A DNA stretch of 48,474 nt from Terriglobia bacterium (lineage in GTDB: Bacteria > Acidobacteriota > Terriglobia > Terriglobales > Acidobacteriaceae), in contig JAIQFP010000028.1 in NCBI GenBank assembly GCA_020073165.1, forward strand, positions 1-48,474, written 5' to 3'. A program made the position numbers and the translations under genes. Below, piece by piece: positions 30,809 through 38,246 of this stretch (its first letter is position 1; each line of letters starts with the position of its first letter). Below the pieces are notes generated by a model. The model was given only the letters and a program-made list of their open reading frames with translations. It was not told the DNA's origin and made no database searches.

Positions 30809-30891
30809 GCTCTATCATAAGGGACAGCACTTGCGCCTTCGTCTCCACCGACACCGAGACATTGCCAAACTCAACCTGAGAGGTAAATGGC

Positions 30892-33183
30892 ATGCGACTT
30901 TTGAGTGCTCGGCTGATTGTTTCCCTTATTCTTGGCATTGCCCTGGTGTCTCTGTTGTTTTCCTACTACCAGGTTGTGGTGGAGAAGCGCGGGCTGCGAA
31001 GTGACTTGGAACGGCGGGCCGAAGTGCTCGGCGAAAGCCTGGTAGGCAACGTCGAAGGCTCATGGGATGTTGGGTCGGACCGGCAATTGCAGCGCCTCGT
31101 GCAGCGTTTCGCCAACCGCGAGCACCTGGTCGGGGTAGCCATATACGACCAGCTGGGAAACACGGTGGCGATGACCCCGGAGTTGGAGAAGACACTCACC
31201 GCGACTCCGCATGTGGTAGCCCAAGCCATCGCGAAAAATCACGTCGCCAGTTCCTTCATGCGGCTGGGCGGTGATCCGGTGCACGTCCTCGCGTTGCCTC
31301 TGCACCAGAAGGGTGAAGTGGTGGGCGGCCTGGCGGTGGTGCACGATGTGAGCTACATCCGGGCCCAGAGCCTTCGCGTGTGGCGGGTTGGTTTTTTCCG
31401 TGTCCTCACCCAGGGTTTCTTCGTCGTCTTCATCACACTGTTGATCGTACGCTGGAGCATTGCGGGGCCGATCGCGCGGGCGGCGCACTGGATGCGCGCG
31501 CTGCGCACGGGAAAAATCTCCTCCCACCAGGAGATGCCGGACCTTGATCTTTTCCGCCCTCTGGCGCGAGAAGTCGTCACCATGGCTGAGAGCCTCAGCC
31601 AGGCGCGCAGCGCGGCGGAGAACGAAGCACGCCTACGGGAAGCGGCCGAGTCCATGTGGACCGCGGAGCGGCTTTCGGTGCAGGTGCGTACCCGCCTCCA
31701 GGAGAGCCGCCTGTTCGTGGTCTCCAATCGTGAGCCCTACCTCCATCAGCGGGCCGGCAAGGCGCTCGAGGTGGTGGTGCCCCCCAGCGGACTGGTGACC
31801 GCGCTGGAACCGGTGCTGCGCGCTTGCGATGGCACCTGGATCGCCCACGGCAGCGGAGACGCCGACATGGAGGCGGTGGATGCCCAGGACCGCCTGCGCG
31901 TTCCTCCCGATGATCCCCGCTACACTTTGCGCCGGGTGTGGTTGAGCAAAGAGGAGGAAGAAGGCTACTACTACGGGTTTGCCAACGAAGGTCTTTGGCC
32001 GCTCTGCCACATCGCGCATACCCGTCCCATTTTTCGGGCCGCCGATTGGCAGCATTATCAAGAGGTCAACCGCAAGTTCACGCAAGCCGTTCTGGAGGAA
32101 ATCGAAGACACGCCCAAGCCGGTGGTGCTGGTCCAGGACTACCATTTCGCATTGCTCCCCCGCCTGGTCAAAGAGAAGCGGCCGGATGCGCGGGTGGCCA
32201 TTTTCTGGCATATCCCGTGGCCCAACCCGGAAGCCTTCGGGATCTGTCCCTGGCAGCGGTATCTGGTGGAGGGCCTGCTAGGGGCCGACCTCATCGGATT
32301 CCACATTCAGTCGCATTGCAACAACTTCTTGCGAACCGTGGATCGGGTGGTGGAATCGCGCGTGGACTGGGAGCATTTTGCCGTGCAGCGCCAGGACCAC
32401 CGTACTATCGTCCGCCCCTTTCCCATCAGTGTTGACCTCACCGACGATCAATCCGCGCAAGACAAGCACGATGGCTCCAGCTATATCGAGCGCGGAACTC
32501 TGATACGCAACCTCGGGGTCGAAGCCACGTTTCTCGGGGTGGGCGTCGATCGGGTGGACTACACCAAGGGAATTCTGGAGCGCTTCCTGGCGATCGAGCG
32601 CTTCCTGGAGAAAAACCCAACCTATCAGGGGAAGTTCACCTTCGTGCAGATTGGGGCGCCAAGCCGCACCCACATCAAGCGCTACCACGACCTGCTGGCT
32701 GAGGTGGAAGCTGAGGCGGAACGCATCAACTGGCACTTTCAGGCCGCTAAGTGGAAACCCATTGTTTTCCTGAAGCGTCAACACAGCCACAAGGAGATTG
32801 CTCCTTACTACCGCGCCGCCGATCTTTGCCTGGTGACATCATTGCACGACGGCATGAACCTGGTGGCGAAGGAGTTCCTGGCGGCGCGCCGGGACGAACG
32901 CGGAGTGCTGATCCTGAGCCAGTTCACGGGCGCAGCCACTGAGTTGCGGGACGCCTTGCTGGTCAACCCTTATGACATCGACCAAACGGCGGAAGCCATC
33001 CGGGTTGCTCTGGAAATGGAACCGGAAGAGAAACAGTTGCGAATGCAACGCATGCGCCGGGTCATCAAAGAGCACAACATCTACCGCTGGGCCGGAAACC
33101 TGATTACGGAACTCTGCGAGGTCCGGTTGGATGCAGCCCAGGACGCCCCGGAAAAACTTCGCGCCAGCGTTTCCGGCGCCTGA
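30892..33183 (+). CDS. otsA: Trehalose-6-phosphate synthase fused to a membrane sensor-HAMP module
   Basis: 763 residues, versus ~475 for ordinary OtsA. Residues ~7-29 and ~166-188 are transmembrane helices enclosing a ~135-residue extracytoplasmic segment ([35 protein letters not shown]), similar to periplasmic sensor domains of histidine kinases. A HAMP-like segment (~188-240) and a coiled-coil linker ([15 protein letters not shown]) lead to a GT20 domain from ~272: [56 protein letters not shown]. It makes trehalose-6-phosphate from UDP- or GDP-glucose and glucose-6-phosphate. AGAGG lies 8 bases before the ATG. The fusion implies signal-gated synthesis at the membrane. Confidence 0.92.
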
Positions 33184-33214
33184 TCTGTCGCTGGCGGAAA
33201 GGAGGAGATGCAGT

Positions 33215-34039
33215 GTGAGATCCGATACGCAGCCTCTGCTTGAGGCCTTTTTTAGATCGCTGACGCAGGCATCCCAATCGCTGTTGCTGCTCGACTACGA
33301 CGGAACCCTGGCGCCATTCCGCAAGGAGCGGGACCAGGCAGTTCCGTATCCCGGCGTGGCGTCGGCTTTGCAGGCGATCATGGGTGAGGGCCACACGCGC
33401 GTGGTCATCATTTCGGGGCGGGAGGCGGCCGACATCCGTCCGCTTCTAGGTATTCAGCCCAGCCCGGAGGTTTGGGGGCTTCACGGTTTGCAGCGAGTGA
33501 AGCCTGACGGAAGCTCGGAAATCCTCCAGCCGGATGAGCGTACTCTGGAGGTCCTGTTGGCTGCCGGTGAGTGGCTGGATCACCAGCACCTGCGGCACAT
33601 GGCAGAGTTCAAGACCGGGAGCATCGCGTTTCATTGGCGTGGTTTGGGCGAGTGTGAGGCAGAGGAGGTGCGGGGCCGGGTACTGGCGGGCTGGCTAGTC
33701 ATTGCTGAGCGTGCGGGCCTGGATCTGTTGGAGTTCGACGGGGGAGTAGAAGTCCGTGCCTCGCAAGCCGACAAGGGCGATGCGGTCCGCGCCATCTTGC
33801 GGGAAATGGAAGCGAATACGCCGGCCGCTTATCTGGGCGACGACACCACGGACGAGAGCGCGTTCCAGGCTCTCCAGGGCCGGGGATTGAGCGTACTGGT
33901 ACGTCCGCGCTGGCGCCAGACCGCCGCCCAGCTATGGCTCAAGCCGCCAGACGAACTTCTCAGTTTCCTGGCGCGATGGCTCAGGGCCTGCCGCGCGGGC
34001 GCAGCCAGCGGCAAGACGGCCGCGGCGGTGAAGCGATGA
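33215..34039 (+). CDS. otsB: Trehalose-6-phosphate phosphatase
   Basis: 274 residues from GTG 33215, with GGAGG 9 bases upstream; the reading frame stays open upstream into otsA but that part is not OtsB-like. HAD phosphatase motifs: DYDGTLAPF (nucleophile Asp), ISGREAADI, GDDTTDESAF. It dephosphorylates trehalose-6-phosphate to trehalose. It overlaps the next gene by four bases (ATGA), so coupled translation is likely. Confidence 0.92.
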   Translation: MRSDTQPLLEAFFRSLTQASQSLLLLDYDGTLAPFRKERDQAVPYPGVASALQAIMGEGHTRVVIISGREAADIRPLLGIQPSPEVWGLHGLQRVKPDGSSEILQPDERTLEVLLAAGEWLDHQHLRHMAEFKTGSIAFHWRGLGECEAEEVRGRVLAGWLVIAERAGLDLLEFDGGVEVRASQADKGDAVRAILREMEANTPAAYLGDDTTDESAFQALQGRGLSVLVRPRWRQTAAQLWLKPPDELLSFLARWLRACRAGAASGKTAAAVKR

Positions 34040-34716
34040 GCAGCGCAGCCGCAGCCACGCCTCAACGCGCACCCGCCAGACCGTTCTACTTCAATACCTC
34101 AGCGCATCTTCTGCGCATCACCACCTACCGGGCGGATACCCTTGCGGAGCTCCTGGATGCACTGCGAGAGTGTCCGGAAGACTCCATCTTTCAACATACC
34201 TTCCGCACCTTGCAGGAACATCACTTTATCCGTGAAGGTTTTTCCAACGACTTTGCGCACTGGGTGCTGTCAGCCTGCAACGAGCCCAAGCTGGCGGAAC
34301 GGCTGGCCAGCGTGGATGTTCGTGAGTTCACGTCGGTCGCCGAGTTGCGAGAACGATTCGTCCAGATTGTGGACAGCTATCTGCAACCCAGCCCGGGAAC
34401 GGCCCAGCGGCCTGCGGAAGAGACCTTCTATTTTTGTGCCTCTGACATCGTCATAATGCCCACCAGCTTTGTGGCTAATACCATGCAGGAGTTCGCAGAA
34501 GGGCTAAGGCACGTCAGTGTGCATTCCATCCATCACCATTTCATCGAAGCGCGCCTGCGGCTCAAGCTGATGTCCAACGACTTCTCCCAGTGGTTGCACG
34601 AAGATGTGGGATTGACCGAGCCGGCCCGGGCCCTGAACCGGATCGACATCTACACCGCGACCCTGGAAGATGTGCGCCGGCAGATGGTGCGGATCGTGGA
34701 ACGGGCATTGACCTAG
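34036..34716 (+). CDS. DUF5752-like protein made of two homologous halves
   Basis: 226 residues from ATG 34036, which overlaps the otsB stop. From memory this family, DUF5752, sits beside trehalose genes; its function is unknown. Two tandem copies of one ~95-residue unit are visible: FYF at 17-19 and 131-133; SIFQHTF...HHF and SIHHHFIEARLRL; SNDFAHW (70-76) and SNDFSQW (180-186); then FTSVAELRERFVQIVDSYL and YTATLEDVRRQMVRIVERAL. Conserved His in each half could bind metal or phosphate. Context suggests a regulator or adaptor of trehalose synthesis. Confidence 0.8.
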   Translation: MSSAAAATPQRAPARPFYFNTSAHLLRITTYRADTLAELLDALRECPEDSIFQHTFRTLQEHHFIREGFSNDFAHWVLSACNEPKLAERLASVDVREFTSVAELRERFVQIVDSYLQPSPGTAQRPAEETFYFCASDIVIMPTSFVANTMQEFAEGLRHVSVHSIHHHFIEARLRLKLMSNDFSQWLHEDVGLTEPARALNRIDIYTATLEDVRRQMVRIVERALT

Positions 34717-34737: not shown

Positions 34738-36087
34738 ATGGAGCCACTCAAGCAGCAAAGCCCCGAGAGCGAGCAGGCGGCGCCAGAACTTTCACCGCAC
34801 CAGCCGATGGCGTCCCCCCAGGTTCTACCTCTGCAGCCGGAGCGCCGGAAAGCGCCGCGGACTTGGGAGACACCTCCCGCACCCGTTCCGCCACCCCATC
34901 TGGATGACTATCAAAGTATTGTCGGCCCTGCTGTGCTCGACGAACTGCGCTTCCTGGCCCGGGAAGTCAAAGCCAGAACCCTGAAGATGGTCAACTCCAC
35001 GGCGGTGGGGGGCGGGGTCGCTGAGATGCTGAACCGCCTGGTTCCGCTGTTGAGCGAGCTCGACGTCACCACCCACTGGGACGTGATTACCGGAGGAAAC
35101 GATTTCTTCGAGGTGACCAAGGCCTTCCACAATGCGTTACACGGCAGCGACTACGAACTCACCCGGCATGCGCAGGAAATCTTCCTGATGTACAACGAGC
35201 AAAACCGCCAGCGCATGCAGTTCTCCGAAGATGTAGTCGTGATCCATGACCCGCAGCCTGCCGCCCTCATCCGGGCCCGCGCAGAAACCCAGGCACGGTG
35301 GGTATGGCGCTGCCACATCGATTTATCGAATCCCCATCCGCAAGTGTGGGGTTTCCTGCGGCCTTTTGTTGAACAATATGACGCCGCCATTTTCTCTTCC
35401 CAGTCGTTTGCCCGCCAGCTGCCGATTCCGCAGTACTTGTTTTATCCCTGTATCGACCCGCTATCGGAGAAAAACAAAGAGCTCGATGACAGTTTGGTCC
35501 AGAAGGTGTGTGACGAGTTCGGAGTCGATCGCTCCCGGCCCATCGTGACCCAGGTCTCGCGCTTCGACCGATTGAAAGACCCCGTGGGAGTAGTCCAGGC
35601 CTTCAAGCTGGCCAGGAAGTACGTGGACTGCCAACTGGTGCTGGCCGGAGGTGGGGCCAGCGACGATCCGGAGGGGGCGCTCGTTCTAAAGGAGGTGCGG
35701 GAGGCGGCCGGGAACGATCCCGACATCGTCATTCTTGACCTGCCGCCCTGGTGCGCCCTGGAGATCAACGCCCTGCAACGGGCTTCGACGCTGATCGTGC
35801 AGAAGTCCATTAAAGAAGGCTTTGGGCTCACCGTCACGGAGGCGCTCTGGAAAGGTAAGCCCACCATCGCTGGCGCCGTCGGGGGGATTCCAAACCAGAT
35901 CATTCATAAGCTGACGGGTATGCTGGTGCATTCTGTGGAAGGGTGTGCTTATCAGATTCGCTACCTCTTGACCCATCCTGAATTTGCCGCCCAACTCGGC
36001 AGGAACGGGCGCGAGCACGTCAAGGAAAACTTCCTGATAACCACCAACGTCCGGCGGTGGTTGCTGCTGCTACGGCGTTGGGTGTAG
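34738..36087 (+). CDS. treT: Trehalose synthase, TreT-type GT4 glycosyltransferase
   Basis: 449 residues. A Pro-rich N-terminal ~55 residues, then LKMVNSTAVGGGVAEMLNRLVPLL, WDVITGGNDFFEVTKAFHNALHG, VVVIHDPQPAAL, WRCHIDLSNPHPQVWGFLRPFV and a C-terminal GT-B domain with VSRFDRLKDPVGVVQAF, SIKEGFGLTVTEALWKGKPTIAGAVGGIPNQI. This is the TreT / trehalose phosphorylase-like pattern: reversible joining of NDP-glucose and glucose to trehalose. It gives the operon a second route that bypasses trehalose-6-phosphate. It starts 21 bases after the DUF5752 stop. Confidence 0.87.
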   Translation: MEPLKQQSPESEQAAPELSPHQPMASPQVLPLQPERRKAPRTWETPPAPVPPPHLDDYQSIVGPAVLDELRFLAREVKARTLKMVNSTAVGGGVAEMLNRLVPLLSELDVTTHWDVITGGNDFFEVTKAFHNALHGSDYELTRHAQEIFLMYNEQNRQRMQFSEDVVVIHDPQPAALIRARAETQARWVWRCHIDLSNPHPQVWGFLRPFVEQYDAAIFSSQSFARQLPIPQYLFYPCIDPLSEKNKELDDSLVQKVCDEFGVDRSRPIVTQVSRFDRLKDPVGVVQAFKLARKYVDCQLVLAGGGASDDPEGALVLKEVREAAGNDPDIVILDLPPWCALEINALQRASTLIVQKSIKEGFGLTVTEALWKGKPTIAGAVGGIPNQIIHKLTGMLVHSVEGCAYQIRYLLTHPEFAAQLGRNGREHVKENFLITTNVRRWLLLLRRWV

Positions 36088-36113: not shown

Positions 36114-38246
36114 CTATCCAGGTCCTGCTGCTTCTGCACGCGCACTTGGCAGCGTGACCGTGAACACCGCGCCTCCCCCCGCACCCGAGGAAGCTTCCAC
36201 GTTGCCTCCGTGCTCCCGCAGAATCGCCTTGCAGATGCTCAGCCCCAGCCCCGTGCCGCGTCCCGGCCGCTTGGTGGTGTAGAAGGGATCGAAGATGTTG
36301 GGCAGAATGTCCGGCGAGATGCCCGGCCCGTCATCCTGAAAGGTAGCGGTCACCGCATTGTCGGCTCGCCCCAGGCGAATGCGCAGTGTGCCTCTGTCGC
36401 GCACCTCCCGGATGGCTTGCTCCGCATTCAGGATCAGGTTCAGGAAAACCTGCATGAGCTGGTGGGGATCGCCGTTCACAGGGGGGATTGCGTTGTCCGG
36501 CAGAAAATCCACGGTAATGTTGTTCCGGCGCAGGGAATAGGCGTGCAGGTGCAGAGTGCGCTGCACCAGTTCACCGAGGTTGATTGGGCCCTTTCCCGGG
36601 GAGGGCGGCCGCGAGAAGTACATCAGGTTCTGCACGATCTCGGCGGCGCGGCGGCTCTGCTGCTGCAACATAACCAGGTGCTTGCGGACGGGCTCGGTAA
36701 CCTCCCCCTCCTGCAGCAGTTCGGCGACCCCCAGGATGCTGGTGAGGGGATTGTTCAGTTCGTGGGCAAAGCCGCCAATCATCTGCCCCATGGCCGCCAA
36801 CCGCTCGCTCTGGATGATCTGCTGCTCGAGCTTTTTTTCCACCGTGATGTCGCGCACGGAAACAATCACTCCGTTCAGCTTGCTCTCGGCGTCGAACAGC
36901 GGGCTGGCGGTGGCCCGCATGGTGCGCCAGCTTCCGTCACGGTGGCGCGCCCCATACTCGCAAAAGCTGAACATCTTTCGCCCTGAGCTGACCTCCCGGC
37001 ACAACGCCAGAAACTCGGGTGACTGGTCTTGCCCCGCTTCGAGCTTCCTTCCGGTTAGATCCTCGGGCTTATAGCCGAGCAGATCGCGGATGCGGGAGCT
37101 GACAAAGCTGTAGCGTTCATCGAGGTCAATGACCAGAATCAGGTCAGGGAAGCTCTCCAGCAGGTAGCGCTGAAACTCTTCCTGCCGCCGGATGGCCTTC
37201 TCCATCTCCCGCCGCTCGGTGACGTCCACCAGCGTGCCCTGGTAGCGGATGATCTTGCCGGCGCTGTCCCAGACCGCGCGCGAAGTGTCCTGGAAGATGG
37301 CACTTTTGCCGTCCCGGCGGCGCAGCGTAATCTCTCGCGTGCGCACTCCCCCCTGATCATCGGCACTGCGTCCCAACACCGGGCTTTGGCCCGGCTCCAA
37401 GTTCAGGGCAGTGGGATCGAGGCGGAGCAGGTCGTCCTTGCTTTCATATCCCAGCATCTGAACCAGCGCGGGGTTGGCGTCGAGCAGCTTGCCTTCTGGC
37501 GTGCTGAAGTAAACACCCTCTTGCAGGGTTTCAAACAGCTCGGTGAAGCGCCGTTCCTTCTCGCGTTCTTCGGTGACATCGCGGGCGAGGGCGCTGACTC
37601 CGACCACCTCATCGCTCTTCAAGATCGCGTTCAGCACGCAATCAAAGTACAGGACTCGTGGATTGTTCTTCAGCCGCACCCGGACCATGCCGGCCCAGCG
37701 CCGCTTTTCCAGGAACCGGGCCAGGCCGGACTCCACATGGCTGCGCACCGGTTCATCCACAAATTCGTCGAGCTTGTGCCCGACGACATCGATGTAGGAG
37801 ATCCCCAGCAACTCGACCACCCGGCGATTGACCGTCCTCAGCGTGCCGTCCAGCGAAACCGCGAAAGCCACATCGTCAAAGGAGTCGATCAGCTCTTTGA
37901 AGCTGCGCTGCGAACGCATGATGACCTGGGAGAGCTGGTCGAGTTGCTCTTCACTCGGGGCCACGCCCACCCGGTCTTGCAGTCCGTGCAGCAGGACTTT
38001 GAGTTCGGAAACCTCGCGGCGCCGGCCGTAGGCATAGACCGCGAACAGGACGGACAGCACCAGCAGGCCAACCGGTACTGCGCCCAGGCGGTAAGGCAGT
38101 TTCTCCAGGGCCTGCCAGGAAAGGGCTGCCATGCCGGCTGCCAGCAGCACCAGCAACCAAAGCGCGTAGTGCCACAGCCGGTTTTCTTCCCGTTCGAGAT
38201 GACTGGGAGTGCGGGGACGCTCGGTTTGCTTTTCGTCTTCAGCCAT
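36114..38246 (-). CDS. Membrane histidine kinase with three PAS domains
   Basis: 710 residues. Two transmembrane helices (~26-46 and ~52-72) with almost no external loop, then three PAS domains (~115-230, ~240-355, ~365-480; each ends in a DVTE/DITVEKK PAC motif), HisKA with FAHELNNPLTSILG (phospho-acceptor His) and HATPase_c with NLILNAEQA, DDGPGI, TTKRPGRGTGLGLSI. The short loop and PAS set suggest sensing of redox, light or a cytosolic ligand. No response regulator is adjacent, so it is an orphan kinase. It converges with the trehalose operon; a functional tie is only positional. Confidence 0.93.
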   Translation of the reverse strand: MAEDEKQTERPRTPSHLEREENRLWHYALWLLVLLAAGMAALSWQALEKLPYRLGAVPVGLLVLSVLFAVYAYGRRREVSELKVLLHGLQDRVGVAPSEEQLDQLSQVIMRSQRSFKELIDSFDDVAFAVSLDGTLRTVNRRVVELLGISYIDVVGHKLDEFVDEPVRSHVESGLARFLEKRRWAGMVRVRLKNNPRVLYFDCVLNAILKSDEVVGVSALARDVTEEREKERRFTELFETLQEGVYFSTPEGKLLDANPALVQMLGYESKDDLLRLDPTALNLEPGQSPVLGRSADDQGGVRTREITLRRRDGKSAIFQDTSRAVWDSAGKIIRYQGTLVDVTERREMEKAIRRQEEFQRYLLESFPDLILVIDLDERYSFVSSRIRDLLGYKPEDLTGRKLEAGQDQSPEFLALCREVSSGRKMFSFCEYGARHRDGSWRTMRATASPLFDAESKLNGVIVSVRDITVEKKLEQQIIQSERLAAMGQMIGGFAHELNNPLTSILGVAELLQEGEVTEPVRKHLVMLQQQSRRAAEIVQNLMYFSRPPSPGKGPINLGELVQRTLHLHAYSLRRNNITVDFLPDNAIPPVNGDPHQLMQVFLNLILNAEQAIREVRDRGTLRIRLGRADNAVTATFQDDGPGISPDILPNIFDPFYTTKRPGRGTGLGLSICKAILREHGGNVEASSGAGGGAVFTVTLPSARAEAAGPG

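Follow-up and report, generated by a model that had tools for sequence, protein, structure and literature searches.

The window analysed here is a stretch of 48,474 nucleotides (contig JAIQFP010000028.1, positions 1–48,474, assembly GCA_020073165.1) from a Terriglobia bacterium of the Acidobacteriota. It carries an open reading frame at 30892–33183, exactly the coordinates given in an earlier reading of the letters (the sequence-only reading), whose product joins the sensory half of a membrane receptor to a trehalose-6-phosphate (T6P) synthase domain of family GT20. The ribosome-binding-like motif GAGAGG is located at 30878, upstream of the ATG start codon, and the 763-residue protein is organized as follows.

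30892–33183, forward strand: Cache-HAMP-GT20 fusion (receptor-type trehalose-6-phosphate synthase), 763 residues, ATG start
30898–30954, forward strand: first transmembrane helix (TM1), residues 3–21, a hydropathy peak inside helix 2–58 of the AlphaFold2 (AF2) model
30982–31383, forward strand: extracytoplasmic single Cache domain, WalK/YycG-like, residues about 31–164 (~135 residues), predicted by profile and fold
31393–31449, forward strand: second transmembrane helix (TM2), residues 168–186, a hydropathy peak
31450–31602, forward strand: diverged HAMP, residues 187–237, with amphipathic sequence 1 (AS1) carrying P193 and R205, a variable connector, and amphipathic sequence 2 (AS2) carrying P223 and E227
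31603–31704, forward strand: coiled-coil/signalling-helix linker, residues 238–271, by conservation and AF2 model
31708–33114, forward strand: GT20 trehalose-6-phosphate synthase domain, residues 273–741, by Pfam, structure and active-site residues

The TM1 and TM2 regions exceed the hydropathy threshold in 76 of 76 family members (the window protein and 75 relatives), whereas in the control any stretch of the GT20 half does so in only 9 of the 76. The two transmembrane helices of the sequence-only reading are therefore upheld and a non-membrane N-terminus is not borne out. The AF2 model of residues 1–280, built on a 68-sequence alignment with a mean predicted local distance difference test (pLDDT) score of 83.1, displays a long helix (2–58), an alpha/beta domain, a second long helix (154–206), a break and a further helix (222–255). 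Thus, hydropathy peaks and modelled helices together describe the classical TM1-sensor-TM2-HAMP-coiled coil order, and the structure prediction called for at the outset places a Cache fold between two long helices.

The extracytoplasmic domain of ~135 residues, already noted by the sequence-only reading, is predicted from profile and model comparisons to be a single Cache domain of the WalK type held between the two transmembrane helices. Searched against solved structures, the family profile picks out the extracellular domain of WalK/YycG (5is1 at E 7.6e-7, with 4ywz and 7dud near E 1e-5), and the top Foldseek match of the sensor model is the WalK integrative model 9a5d (TM-score 0.70 of the query), together with WalK/YycG crystal structures. 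In VIA-align the model superposes on 5is1/4ywz with Z 15.7 over 131–135 residues, and the sensor domains of KinD, Mlp24, CitA and DctB score lower, at Z about 14–15 (lowest 13.8). Profile match, fold matches and flanking transmembrane peaks together assign the domain to the Cache superfamily. Pfam sCache_3_2 remains sub-threshold on the window protein (16.4 and 17.3 bits against a gathering cut-off of 28.4; E 0.01) and matches 18 of 68 members at E<=0.01 (best 4.2e-7), while SMP_2, which PMC4822843 presents as a further Cache-superfamily model, is matched by 21 of the 68 and other families by few. No ligand residues or motif are assignable in the Cache domain, which is the least conserved domain of the fusion (33% identity in 23 far relatives) and differs in length by up to nine residues among members.

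The segment that follows TM2 owes its identification as HAMP to homology with the HAMP regions of histidine kinases. A profile of family residues 1–280 matches three Acidobacteriota sensor kinases (L142, L143 and L144) over profile positions 1–269, 1–261 and 1–255, with E 4e-29, 6e-30 and 1e-30, respectively. In all three kinases Pfam identifies HisKA, HATPase_c and a HAMP domain (E 2e-9 to 5e-14), and an NtrC-like regulator sequence is seen by eye downstream of each. When the module is split, the Cache part matches the same kinases with E 8e-14 to 6e-13 and the HAMP and linker portion (residues 185–262) with E 0.003, 6e-5 and 2e-5. The helix-connector-helix anatomy expected after TM2 is displayed by helix 154–206, the break and helix 222–255. 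The profile thus describes one sensory module with two outputs, kinase and GT20, and the receptor architecture first proposed, in which a metabolic enzyme occupies the output position, finds its counterpart in the sensor-HAMP half of these kinases. Between HAMP and enzyme, the linker contains the invariant residues A238, A242, A246, R249, W256, T257 and L261, and over residues 238–262 its mean conservation is 0.75 compared with 0.78 for the enzyme. The segment 166–188 is of constant length in all 76 members, as is TM2-AS1, and the distance from AS2 to GT20 is constant in 75 of 76, with the HAMP connector (R205 to P223 inclusive) ranging from 17 to 22 residues. A periodicity of 3.38 (p 0.01) over residues 221–271 and of 3.44 (p 0.065) over 219–252 is no more than suggestive.

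The GT20 domain is complete, in agreement with the sequence-only reading: Pfam GT20 (PF00982) covers residues 273–741 with E 2.3e-122 and 409.6 bits (cut-off 32.5), extending over positions 2–471 of 473. Its nearest neighbours of known structure are T6P synthases, among them M. thermoresistibile OtsA in complex with ADP and glucose-6-phosphate (5jio), with which the domain shares 36% identity and a TM-score of 0.89 of the target. Residues R280, G300, W316, Y360, D416, H440, R554, K559 and R592 are identical in 76 of 76 members, while W369, D653 and E661 are each present in 75, the remaining member having a gap. By alignment all twelve are the same in 5jij, and they correspond, in the order given, to E. 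coli R9, G22, W40, Y76, D130, H154, R262, K267, R300, W85, D361 and E369, which are donor, acceptor and catalytic positions. The domain is therefore predicted to be an active T6P synthase. Two further positions depart from the classical enzymes: S299 (31786–31788) replaces glycine in the donor loop in 64 of 76 members, and H652 (32845–32847) replaces arginine or lysine before the DGMN motif in 74 of 76. These changes are seen in none of 28 classical rows and could reflect a different nucleotide-sugar preference.

The relationship among these enzymes was assessed with a maximum-likelihood tree of 103 GT20 domains, a quick, midpoint-rooted search supported by the Shimodaira-Hasegawa approximate likelihood-ratio test (SH-aLRT) only, in which the fusions are represented by the even-numbered loci and two classical rows shorter than 400 residues are left out. 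The 44 fusions lie on one side of a branch with SH-aLRT 99. A wider 73-row group (SH-aLRT 100) excludes the 28 rows taken as ordinary Acidobacteriota GT20s and also includes 12 enzymes of soluble size, 6 with sensor variants and a set of 10 long-frame rows that itself has SH-aLRT 100.

We consider it reasonably probable, taking these data together, that the protein is a Cache-HAMP receptor with T6P synthesis as its output, a trehalose-6-phosphate synthase having taken the place of the histidine kinase. Compared with WalK/YycG and other Cache-HAMP kinases, the fusion displays the same transmembrane-Cache-transmembrane-HAMP-coiled coil order and a Cache fold superposing at Z 15.7. In contrast to the kinases, which end in HisKA/HATPase, its coiled coil enters GT20. 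The likeness to OtsA/GT20 synthases such as 5jio lies in the complete GT20 domain with conserved catalytic and substrate residues, whereas the separate GT20 group (SH-aLRT 100), the 270-residue membrane sensor in front, S299/H652 and a score below TIGR02400 set the fusion apart.

Several observations weigh against this interpretation. Pfam HAMP (PF00672) has no match on the window protein and reaches E<=0.01 in just 2 of 68 members (best 0.0057), so that the HAMP-like segment of the sequence-only reading stands through its alignment to the Pfam HAMP regions of the kinases and not through a domain match of its own. The HAMP and linker profile also matches none of six loci with diverged sensors, although their Cache parts match. 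The full-length AF2 model is low across HAMP and linker (pLDDT block means of 53–67 over residues 191–260), and the coupling geometry is consequently not predicted. Invariant linker length, considered as proof of signalling, is weakened by a control in which 70% of 57-residue windows within GT20 are equally length-invariant; windows in the sensor are less so (maximum 0.91). The final ten linker residues (263–272) are poorly conserved (0.52), and a helix resembling that of W256 also precedes GT20, by eye, in the soluble-sized relatives L151 and L158, which indicates that the linker is in part a piece of the enzyme. Finally, the domain misses the cut-off of the OtsA equivalog model TIGR02400 (432.2 against 564.85 bits) and is accordingly classed with a separate group of GT20 enzymes and not as a TIGR02400 OtsA. 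It also scores below the cut-off of the bifunctional PRK14501 model.

The main rival to a signalling receptor is that the N-terminal half is an anchor, which holds the T6P synthase at the inner membrane, the place where trehalose is required, and exerts no regulation. Retention of the transmembrane regions in all 76 members fits such a tether, as does the rapid evolution of the sensor, whose median pairwise dN/dS (the ratio of nonsynonymous to synonymous substitution rates) is 0.164 (80 of 191 pairs usable), compared with 0.084 (120 of 191) for TM2-HAMP-linker and 0.056 (87 of 191) for GT20, all rough values as median dS exceeds 1. Nevertheless, all parts of the fusion look to be under purifying selection, and a single transmembrane helix would be enough for anchoring, yet Cache, HAMP and linker are kept in six named phyla and linker residues 238–262 are nearly as conserved as the enzyme. 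The tether gains further ground from a related GT20 group that is attached to the membrane via a quite different protein. Long frames (870–1436 residues) in other Acidobacteriota were at first suspected to be more sensor fusions. However, 8 of the 10 tested, which are the long-frame rows of the tree, combine a Na+/H+ exchanger domain (PF00999, above cut-off) and a C-terminal GT20 in one reading frame (L162, L163, L164, L165, L166, L168, L169 and L170); L167 and L171 have no PF00999 match. The S299 change is absent from this exchanger-fused group, which by domain content shows this enzyme clade connected to the membrane a second time, in an unrelated way. Membrane attachment itself may thus be selected, and the exchanger fusions suggest that coupling of the GT20 enzyme to the membrane has been favoured repeatedly. 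On balance we regard a mere anchor as unlikely.

The receptor-enzyme fusion is not confined to the window. The contig scan gave 173 relatives, of which the best 80 were kept, so that the counts give no estimate of prevalence. A single open frame spans both halves in 75 of these 80 loci; the five dropped (L075, L076, L092, L098 and L111) run off the contig end, and in L032 the fusion frame continues into the next gene. As the unbroken frames include one on the complete chromosome CP085323.1, an assembly or frame artefact is ruled out. A carrier with a complete genome, Acidobacteriaceae bacterium ZG23-2 (locus L085), is presumably in culture. By record title the carriers belong to Acidobacteriota, Elusimicrobiota, Thermodesulfobacteriota, Nitrospirota, Ignavibacteriota and Bacteroidota, phylum names that are uncertain because nearly all fusion records are metagenome assemblies, in which binning may err. 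The search for the same fusion in other Acidobacteriota, suggested at the outset, gives full-length profile matches (starting no later than position 30 and reaching at least 719) in 32 of 396 sampled genomes, genome counts being made by eye; two of the 32 (G297 and G019) have one stop within the aligned stretch, and two further genomes (G201 and G074) hold a broken or split copy. In one of these, L181 (G074:C19), the sensor and GT20 halves occupy two overlapping frames, the result of a frameshift or a sequencing error.

In 25 of the 32 carrier Acidobacteriota no GT20 other than the fusion was scored, at most three candidates being scored per genome (for G394, 3 of 5). Three carriers (G289, G385 and G005) combine the main fusion with a diverged sensor variant, three (G073, G139 and G150) combine it with a soluble-sized GT20, and G116 holds three GT20s, two of them in fusions and one in a 1242-residue frame. 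Among 12 chosen carrier genomes, 11 of them non-Acidobacteriota, 11 have a single, fusion-sized GT20 match, and the twelfth has two GT20 matches, both fusions (L106 and L108). The diverged sensor variant precedes GT20 at six loci in six genomes (L145–L150; profile E 8e-19 to 1.2e-11) and is the only form found in G192, G221 and G169. In L148 (1012 residues) and L149 (1220 residues) the sensor profile matches only from residues 266 and 474, respectively, and the upstream extension is probably non-coding. Contig name prefixes point to possible paralogue pairs (L036/L088, L059/L089, L069/L076, L081/L082, L106/L108 and L063/L075), which suggest that several assemblies hold two fusion paralogues, some with different neighbours. 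Such paralogues might sense different signals.

Downstream of the fusion three genes follow on the same strand.

33215–34039, forward strand: OtsB, trehalose-6-phosphate phosphatase; the GTG at 33215, after GGAGG at 33201, is the likelier start (the listed reading frame starts at 33131)
34036–34716, forward strand: DUF5752 protein; the likely ATG overlaps the OtsB stop (ATGA; the listed reading frame starts at 33934)
34738–36087, forward strand: TreT-like GT4 glycosyltransferase, beginning 21 bases after DUF5752

The OtsB start lies 31 bases past the fusion stop. The one-protein pathway of the sequence-only reading must be qualified, since OtsB, DUF5752 and the TreT-like GT4 are tightly spaced behind the fusion. 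The fusion is the sole GT20 match in the 4.6-Mb genome and the OtsB gene the sole trehalose phosphatase match, while TreS (TIGR02456) and TreY (TIGR02401) give only sub-cut-off fragments at two places in a search that did not include TreZ. Trehalose synthesis thus seems, from gene content, to be routed through the fusion cluster, with TreT-type synthesis by the neighbouring GT4 possible. Convergent to the cluster, at 36114–38246 on the reverse strand, lies a histidine kinase rich in PAS repeats, with HisKA and HATPase_c, which has no match above 150 bits in the other 80 loci. No paper on DUF5752 was found in the open-access literature.

A BLAST survey with the window proteins over the 80 loci, a lower bound for diverged neighbours, finds OtsB, DUF5752 and TreT matches near the fusion in 37, 33 and 36 loci, with downstream room for them in 72, 69 and 63, respectively. 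In at least 11 loci DUF5752 directly follows the fusion with no space for OtsB, and DUF5752 and TreT-like genes also adjoin the soluble-sized GT20 relatives L151–L153. At nine loci lacking a BLAST OtsB match (L055, L059, L065, L068, L077, L080, L089, L101 and L105), Pfam searches of selected flanking frames identify GH30, alpha-amylase, 4-alpha-glucanotransferase, pyrimidine genes, a beta-lactamase-like protein, BKACE and FtsX, with a HAD hydrolase flanking the fusion in L077 and some flanking frames matching no Pfam family. The conserved neighbourhood is only partly informative on function. These data bear on a second alternative, in which the GT20 domain does not, or does not mainly, make T6P: its product would be a different glucoside phosphate, or it would bind sugar phosphates without catalysis, and signalling would take some other route. 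The sub-cut-off scores with TIGR02400 and PRK14501, the S299 and H652 changes and the loci with DUF5752 in place of OtsB are what such a domain might display. The conservation of twelve catalytic and substrate positions, T6P synthases such as 5jio as nearest structures, the lower score of the glucosylglycerol-phosphate synthase model (323 bits), the OtsB gene that follows in the window, with BLAST matches to it in 37 of 80 loci, and the lack of a second GT20 match in the genome argue for T6P as product, and we judge this alternative quite improbable.

The cluster also recalls the TPSP-GT-MSC complex of Thermoproteus tenax, a proposed stress-response unit in which the T6P synthase is activated by a GT4 protein and a channel-like protein is encoded in the same operon (PMC3634074). 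Both combine a T6P synthase gene with a GT4 and a membrane component. In contrast, the membrane component of T. tenax is a separate mechanosensitive-channel-like protein and its synthase is fused to the phosphatase, whereas the window has a separate OtsB, a TreT-like GT4 and no channel among the four cluster proteins, which places it outside the T. tenax type. By analogy the TreT-like GT4 could nonetheless play a similar activating part. A third alternative builds on this likeness: the TreT-like GT4 and DUF5752 would chiefly control the synthase in a membrane-bound complex, and the sensor would only localize or tune that complex. The requirement of T. tenax TPSP for co-expressed GT4 for its synthase activity (PMC3634074) and the presence of DUF5752 and TreT-like genes near many fusions and beside L151–L153 lend it some weight. 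However, about half of the loci with downstream room lack these neighbours by BLAST, and the T. tenax GT is likened to PimA and not to TreT in PMC3634074, so that control by the neighbours appears very unlikely.

In a Cache-HAMP receptor with a T6P synthase as output, the receptor would gate the enzyme. The fusion would work as a dimer, in which a signal from the periplasm would alter the Cache domain; at a guess this is osmotic or envelope stress, as the sequence-only reading supposed, or else the binding of a small ligand. TM2 and HAMP would turn this change into a rotation or altered packing of the coiled coil, which would reposition or re-oligomerize the GT20 domains and move T6P synthesis up or down, with OtsB converting T6P to trehalose. 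The wider proposal, that a Cache receptor drives its own T6P synthase via HAMP, with no transcription or phosphorelay, in at least six named phyla, and that membrane wiring of this enzyme clade arose at least twice, once with an exchanger, is advanced tentatively, as one somewhat more apt to fail than to stand.

HAMP receptors are generally described with the same kinds of output as Cache receptors. The latter terminate in kinases, cyclases, phosphatases, chemotaxis domains and others, as set out in PMC4822843. The output columns of its Table 1 (HK, MCP, GCD, AC/GC, SP, STK, IC and TF) include no glycosyltransferase, and as they fall short of the totals some proteins are unclassed there. The fusion resembles the Cache/HAMP diguanylate and adenylate cyclases of the same table as a receptor with an enzyme output and differs from them in that its output is a biosynthetic glycosyltransferase. 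No membrane- or HAMP-fused T6P synthase and no exchanger-GT20 fusion were found in the open-access literature. Of two evolution papers, PMC1769515 does not contain 'transmembrane', 'sensor' or 'kinase' in its main text, and 12 of the 19 OtsA passages in the first 300,000 of 445,374 characters of PMC11046441 describe no such fusion.

The receptor chassis is a known one, and what is new here is the kind of output that it carries. A biosynthetic enzyme in this position would widen what a receptor controls, and the fusion makes it testable how an unrelated enzyme fold reads HAMP/coiled-coil motion, with a product that is easily assayed. If the proposal is true, the 'second messenger' of the receptor would be the precursor of the protectant itself, and Acidobacteriota could raise trehalose fast without new gene expression.

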